From IMG/VR virus record IMGVR_UViG_3300009082_000023, positions 1 through 52,889 of that record: a stretch of 52,889 nucleotides of DNA; one strand, 5' to 3'. The position numbers and the translations under genes are program-made. The stretch comes from a virus. Numbering within the stretch: the first letter of the stretch is position 1; the number at the start of each line of letters is the position of its first letter. The notes beneath the pieces were generated by a model that was given only the letters and a program-made list of their open reading frames with translations, was not told the DNA's origin and did no database searches. Of the stretch, positions 17,395 through 17,726 are shown one piece after another.

Positions 17395-17425
17395 AAAAAA
17401 AGGAGGGTTACTATCTTCACCCTCC
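17395..17425 (-). terminator. Rho-independent terminator of the tmRNA unit
   Basis: On the minus strand GGAGGGT (17425-17419) pairs with ACCCTCC (17408-17402) around a 10-base loop, then seven T (17401-17395). It lies just after the tag-encoding piece and separates the RNA gene from the early operon. Confidence 0.9.
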
Positions 17426-17453
17426 TTAGTCGTCAAGAGTTGCCTCTTAGCAA

Positions 17454-17504
17454 TTACGCTGCCATGCGTGACTGTGACCTTTCGGTCATTGAAATTGTTT
17501 TGCC
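17454..17504 (-). other. tmRNA tag reading frame ending Ala-Ala-stop
   Basis: Within the coding piece the frame GGC AAA ACA ... ATG GCA GCG TAA gives GKTISMTERSQSRMAA and then stop. The Ala-Ala end is as in known degradation tags (usually LAA or VAA). The exact resume codon is uncertain; GGC at 17504 or a nearby codon is proposed. A hairpin TGACC-GAAA-GGTCA lies inside the frame. Confidence 0.55.
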
Positions 17505-17561
17505 TTTTATGGCTTTAGTCCTCCATTATTGCCTTGCATCCTGTCAAATCCAGTCATCCCC

Positions 17562-17631
17562 ATACTGGTTGTTAAGGCACAACCATAAGCCGGGGCTGTC
17601 TAAGCCGTCCACCATCCGGGATTAATCGGAG
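17562..17631 (-). other. Intervening segment of the permuted tmRNA
   Basis: 70 bases join the mature 3' and 5' ends in the precursor. They contain the perfect hairpin GGTTGT-GCCTTA-ACAACC (17584-17567) and a short GGCT/AGCC hairpin. In known permuted tmRNAs this segment is removed during maturation. Confidence 0.7.
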
Positions 17632-17694
17632 TGGAGATGCCGGGAATCGAACCCGGGTCCAGTGATACCGCCTTATAACTTCAACGAACTAAGG

Positions 17695-17726
17695 CAAATT
17701 TAAAACGTATTTATTTATTATGCAAA
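17695..17726 (-). promoter_or_regulatory. Bacteroidota-type promoter for the tmRNA
   Basis: On the minus strand TTTG (17726-17723), 20 bases, then TAAATTTGC (17702-17694): an exact consensus match. Transcription should start near 17688, immediately before the acceptor piece. The promoter lies just after the late-operon terminator. Confidence 0.85.

Follow-up and report, generated by a model that had tools for sequence, protein, structure and literature searches.

A circularly permuted, probably two-piece tmRNA gene in a phage of Bacteroidota

Background

tmRNA releases stalled ribosomes and tags the incomplete proteins on them; its permuted form is on record from three lineages of bacteria, from phages of these and from organelles. 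A locus in the viral contig IMGVR_UViG_3300009082_000023 (52,889 nucleotides, the whole of which is referred to here as the window) raises the question of whether phages of Bacteroidota also encode a tmRNA of this kind and, if so, whether its permutation arose independently. A first-pass annotation, made from the letters of the window, had placed such a gene at 17402-17690 and was aware of no other in a Bacteroidota phage. Our analysis indicates that this interpretation is largely right, yet the permuted form is already present in the databases.

Results

Read along the minus strand from 17726 to 17395, the locus opens with a promoter, which is followed by the acceptor piece, the spacer and the coding piece that contains the tag frame; an intrinsic terminator closes it (Table 1). 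The outer coordinates proposed earlier are consistent with the mapped elements, and the details proposed with them hold as well: the T-arm and the 3' acceptor strand lie upstream of the 5' signature on the same strand, the spacer (17631-17562) being 70 nt; the acceptor stem has 7/7 pairs with G-U at pair 3; and the matching helix 2 has 8 bp (8/8), one base of its 3' strand being bulged out. CCA is not encoded in the acceptor piece, and the discriminator is an A. The precursor probably spans from about 17688 to 17395, i.e., about 290 nt. A terminator scan tool, with a loop limit of 8 nt, reported none at the tmRNA 3' end. The promoter motif TTTG-N-TAnnTTTG is enriched in the window (9 found against 1.58 expected; 0/100 shuffles), but not clearly so at the loci of most relatives, which was counted against a functional gene.

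Table 1. Elements of the predicted tmRNA gene in the window, and RAGATH RNAs at crAss-like loci
Feature	Position	Strand	Evidence
Bacteroidota-type promoter TTTG-N20-TAAATTTG of the tmRNA precursor	17695..17726	-	pattern search
Acceptor piece (helix-2 3' strand, T-arm, acceptor 3' strand, discriminator A17632)	17632..17688, 5' end approximate	-	
Helix 2, 3' strand, one-base bulge	17660..17669	-	8/8 pairs and covariation, 13 sequences
T-arm CCGGG-TTCGATT-CCCGG	17640..17656	-	T-stem 17656-17652/17644-17640, 5/5 pairs
Acceptor stem 3' strand CATCTCC	17633..17639	-	7/7 pairing with 17561-17555 and covariation
Intervening sequence, exactly 70 nt, predicted to be removed	17562..17631	-	
Acceptor stem 5' strand	17555..17561	-	pairs with 17639-17633, G-U is pair 3
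Coding piece, from predicted RNase P site G17561 to terminator	17395..17561	-	
Helix 2, 5' strand, begins at C17543 (C of TTTGAC)	17532..17543	-	
Predicted tag frame GGC...TAA, GKTISMTERSQSRMAA*	17454..17504	-	frame and resume context common to relatives
Intrinsic terminator, stem-loop then T7	17395..17425	-	sequence and fold
RAGATH RNAs	L274 2289-2457, L275 1128-1306, L289-L295		

The permuted model RF04321 (tmRNA_permuted), which merges the alpha, beta and cyano tmRNA families RF01849-RF01851, matches 17454-17692 of the minus strand over the full model length with 62.6 bits (E 8.3e-10; curated cut-off 47 bits). The standard model RF00023, at 42.0 bits, falls short of its own cut-off of 47 and covers the 3' part only; the locus is thus a member of the permuted family and not of the standard one-piece family. 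The Rfam comparison had been suggested together with the first-pass annotation, and its outcome, a permuted match above cut-off, differs from the adverse one of a standard tmRNA only or nothing. The suggested ARAGORN check came out otherwise: no call was obtained at the locus, relaxed thresholds included, and the matches that appeared under relaxed thresholds were random, lay elsewhere in the window and were discarded.

When a profile is made from nine further phage copies and the window is left out, it finds the locus with E 1.4e-22 and 74.3 bits, the best value among 100 dinucleotide-shuffled windows being 9.3. The covariance model from the same nine (three rows with the acceptor one column off in the first full-family alignment were omitted) scores the window at 102.5 bits and the prophage copy L239 at 116.5 bits; the remaining viral permuted loci that were tested have 53.6-91.1 bits, and no standard Bacteroidota gene exceeds 29.4 bits. 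The window therefore belongs to a Bacteroidota-phage subfamily that scores above permuted genes of the alphaproteobacterial type; since the order of the model gives every permuted gene an advantage over standard ones, these scores show the subfamily and not its origin.

In the acceptor stem and T-stem, all 144 cells of the alignment are paired, with six doubly changed pairs (0/500 shuffles as good); the search pattern fixed much of the acceptor, so the informative pairs are acceptor pair 5, where all four Watson-Crick types occur across the copies, and the outer T-stem. Helix 2, which joins both pieces, is paired in 87/104 cells over 13 sequences, and none of 20,000 random re-pairings equals it, although this count is flattered by the bulged topology having been picked by eye. 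Unconstrained co-folding of the two predicted pieces, another of the suggested checks, recovered every acceptor, T-stem and helix-2 pair; its energy gain is mildly unusual, 15/300 shuffles being equally good, so the energy test is weak.

One could suppose that misassembly, or a chance adjacency of tRNA-like halves, produced the permuted order, considering that the window is a single metagenomic contig. We regard this as next to negligible: the covariation of helix 2 spans the permutation break, and the same order is found in about ten other viral contigs, in crAss-like genomes, in one isolate and in one chromosomal contig. On the sequence evidence, the window gene is a permuted, probably two-piece, tmRNA.

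A scan of viral contigs with a permuted-order pattern returned 98 loci, mostly of the alphaproteobacterial type (TTCGAC, GCA resume codon). The combination of TTTGAC and a glycine resume codon, as in the window, was found in L020, L055, L090/L261, L091, L115 and L117; L002 and L114 form a separate branch, and L095 has an Asp resume codon. ARAGORN calls L261, L263, L264, L265 and L268 permuted, with frames that agree with the predicted ones, the start in L263 being two codons earlier. Three further loci with TTTGAC (L064, L116, L118) were excluded from the set because their tags are of the alpha type. GGAC before the T-arm is missing in L020/L264 (GCAC) and L095/L265 (ACAC), the remainder of each being a permuted tmRNA.

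The tag of the window is likely GKTISMTERSQSRMAA*, as read from an intact frame with a Gly resume codon and U-A at -5/-4, a context shared with most relatives and with Bacteroidota standard genes. Similar tags are predicted for the relatives: GKSIKMSDQSLRMAA (L020), GKTIQMFNQPLRMVA (L261), GNIFKMFTPQVRLAA (L055), GKLIAFGRPALKVAA (L091) and GKVVQLNPSTLSQVAA (L117). At 16 residues the window tag is longer than the host GENNYALAA type, and a strong hairpin GACC-GAAA-GGTC sits within its frame; both features were counted against a functional tmRNA.

The tags also bear on the possibility that the RNA is a decoy or serves host takeover, i.e., that it is charged and bound by SmpB but carries a non-degrading tag, so that host trans-translation is inhibited or redirected. 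The phage tags mostly terminate in R/K-[M/L/V/I]-AA and not in the host YALAA, and tmRNA is inhibited by a tmRNA-like RNA that has no tag, of the phage DS6A type (PMC11915505, PMC4131195). However, stop-terminated tag frames stay open across very divergent phages, and a pure decoy needs none. A hydrophobic-AA tag end, moreover, resembles known degrons. We consider the decoy unlikely, and retain the reading of the gene as a functional tmRNA.

The window contig encodes terminase, portal, tail and endolysin proteins, and its primase-helicase matches almost only phages of Flavobacterium, Cellulophaga, Nonlabens, Tenacibaculum and Maribacter. Together with the RF04321 match, the stems and the enriched promoter motif, this host-phage evidence bears out the claim of a permuted tmRNA in a Bacteroidota phage. 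A search of the window contig for smpB and ClpX-like genes found neither; smpB was likewise absent from the phage contigs searched, and one was found in the Bacteroidota genome G260. Glycosyltransferases, a UDP-GlcNAc 2-epimerase and polysaccharide-synthesis epimerases lie at both ends of the contig (45-5000 and 47186-52839), perhaps for surface or DNA glycosylation.

No permuted tmRNA gene was found in G003 and G008, two TerL relatives with long contigs, so the tmRNA looks accessory in this phage group, helping in some settings. Such absence in related phages, and the frequent use of tmRNA genes as integration sites, would also suit a decayed remnant or attachment-site relic of a host tmRNA. 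Yet both pieces, every stem, the tag frame, the promoter and the terminator are intact, and a relic of integration would not be permuted, since the sampled hosts have the standard order; we find this explanation very improbable, and a working phage gene remains the preferred one.

The belief that no permuted ssrA was known in a Bacteroidota phage did not survive the search of other such phages, which the first-pass annotation had itself suggested. The same architecture occurs in the RefSeq crAss-like genomes cr125_1, cr10_1, cr114_1, cr115_1, cr52_1, cr60_1 and cr50_1, annotated SsrA and permuted according to ARAGORN, and in the isolate Chryseobacterium phage MA9V-3, also annotated SsrA, where the tmRNA has a Gly resume codon and a predicted tag A-GNVIDINKYVAKLEVAA. 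The MA9V-3 paper lists the tmRNA and does not mention the gene order (PMC13120357). The same phage is annotated with a ClpX of its own (PMC13120357; AAA_2 match at PV245944 26938-27777). Two-piece tmRNAs in phages have been published, 53 being counted among the phage genomes available in 2021 (PMC9004378), and a tmRNA collection has 79 entries from phages (PMC11915505); some of the 53 or the 79 may be crAss-like genes. A search of the main texts of openly accessible papers turned up no account of permuted tmRNA in phages of Bacteroidota.

Several other observations concern the crAss-like loci. An antisense endonuclease gene of about 580 bp lies in the tmRNA spacer of cr113_1 and cr56_1 (L289 1507-2280 and L290); in L289 the acceptor strands TAGCTCC/GGGGCTA of the split tmRNA still form 7/7 pairs, and GNTSYVMDYTRLVA* remains an open tag frame. 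The T-arm is unusual and has no TTCGA. At 9/9 crAss-like loci examined, RAGATH-9, RAGATH-20 or RAGATH-22 lies on the upstream side of the permuted tmRNA, in most cases no more than about 1.5 kb away; in L274 and L292, RAGATH-9 and the 5' end of the tmRNA gene as annotated overlap. Hatchet ribozymes occur near the permuted tmRNA in L274 and L275, and a tRNA-His gene stands between the acceptor and coding pieces in cr114_1 (L291 1070-1142).

Among 396 sampled Bacteroidota genomes, RF04321 gave one match above cut-off; four of four inspected matches below it proved to be standard one-piece genes. The sole match, with the tag GKVIQMNNAPVRLAA, has two tRNA genes beside it on a contig of 1.6 Mb, in a prophage-like region with DNA polymerase, rIIA/rIIB-like, DnaB-like and integrase genes nearby, and its genome also has a standard one-piece tmRNA (160 bits) and smpB. 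In a second sample, of 398 genomes from the taxonomic order of that genome, the family model found no other match above 49.5 bits. The strict permuted pattern with TTTGAC had no match in 84,980 species genomes. The signature GGGGNTGNNNTGGNTTTGACAG was found in species genomes at no fewer than 80 loci; among the matches listed, 77 are titled Bacteroidota, and the T-arm lies downstream (standard order) in 71/80 and upstream in 0/80.

Discussion

The window shares with the permuted tmRNA of RF04321 the order of acceptor piece, spacer and coding piece, the tRNA-like domain and the G-U at pair 3. It is distinguished from the alphaproteobacterial type by the Gly resume codon (alpha-type viral loci mostly have GCA), the TTTGAC signature and another tag family, CCA not being encoded. 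The two-piece tmRNA of marine phages (Melnitz, pelagiphages; PMC9004378) is phage-borne and permuted, like that of the window, but the Melnitz gene is reported to be related to alphaproteobacterial ssrA and the host phylum is different (PMC9004378). The crAss-like genes (cr125_1, cr10_1, cr50_1) and MA9V-3 agree with the window in the permutation, the Gly resume codon and Bacteroidota hosts, and are otherwise divergent in sequence; the crAss-like phages differ in their GNxxVTDYTRIAA-type tags and longer spacers, which measure 99-166 nt in two of them and hold an endonuclease gene in two more. The Bacteroidota standard tmRNA has the TTTGACAG signature and the GGC resume codon, like the window, but is in one piece, unpermuted and with YALAA-type tags.

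Concerning the origin, the 16 bases through GGAC fit the Bacteroidota standard profile better than the alpha profile in 11 of 13 members (the window by 4.3 bits, L055 by only 0.2), while those of L095 and L239 fit the alpha one better. The resume contexts ATAACT-GGC, CTAAAT-GGC and ATAAAC-GGC of several members are identical to those of Bacteroidota one-piece genes. Over 64 de-permuted columns, most relatives are nearer to the Bacteroidota standard than to an alpha-type gene, whereas the window is slightly nearer to the alpha type (13 against 15 differences), where an under-resolved tree also placed it; 64 columns are too short for a tree to settle the origin. Weighing the profile and the resume contexts against this ambiguous placement, we consider an independent permutation within Bacteroidota plausible. 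It is tempting to go further and propose a fourth, phage-confined lineage of permuted tmRNA, born in Bacteroidota separately from the events in alphaproteobacteria, betaproteobacteria and cyanobacteria, with a tag family of its own and hosts that keep the one-piece gene; we offer this tentatively, as a proposal with nearly even chances.

With good confidence, we presume that the locus is a working, circularly permuted ssrA gene with which a Bacteroidota phage rescues ribosomes via host SmpB. This relies on the sequence, the pairing and covariation, the conserved frame, the promoter and terminator motifs, and a phage contig without smpB; by analogy, the function is likely trans-translation with host SmpB. 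The gene's own promoter would drive a precursor of about 290 nt, and cleavage by RNase P is predicted immediately 5' of G17561; the acceptor piece would acquire its mature end at A17632 through 3' processing and the addition of CCA, with the 70-nt spacer lost, and the acceptor stem of 7 bp and helix 2 would keep both RNAs joined. The G-U pair should permit charging by the host alanyl-tRNA synthetase, and with host SmpB and EF-Tu the charged RNA would enter stalled ribosomes. Translation would then restart at GGC 17504 and run through the tag GKTISMTERSQSRMAA to its stop codon. The presumed benefit to the phage is the recycling of ribosomes during infection, truncated proteins being marked for host proteolysis.

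The finding points to a detection gap, the window copy being missed by ARAGORN and found by a 2025 Rfam model. With a phage-borne set in Bacteroidota and one-piece genes in the sampled hosts, one can examine whether the permuted form originated in phages or was spread by them. Two further questions are the reason for which phages prefer it and a possible steering of host proteolysis by their tags. Since gut crAss-like phages carry the gene, the effect could be common.
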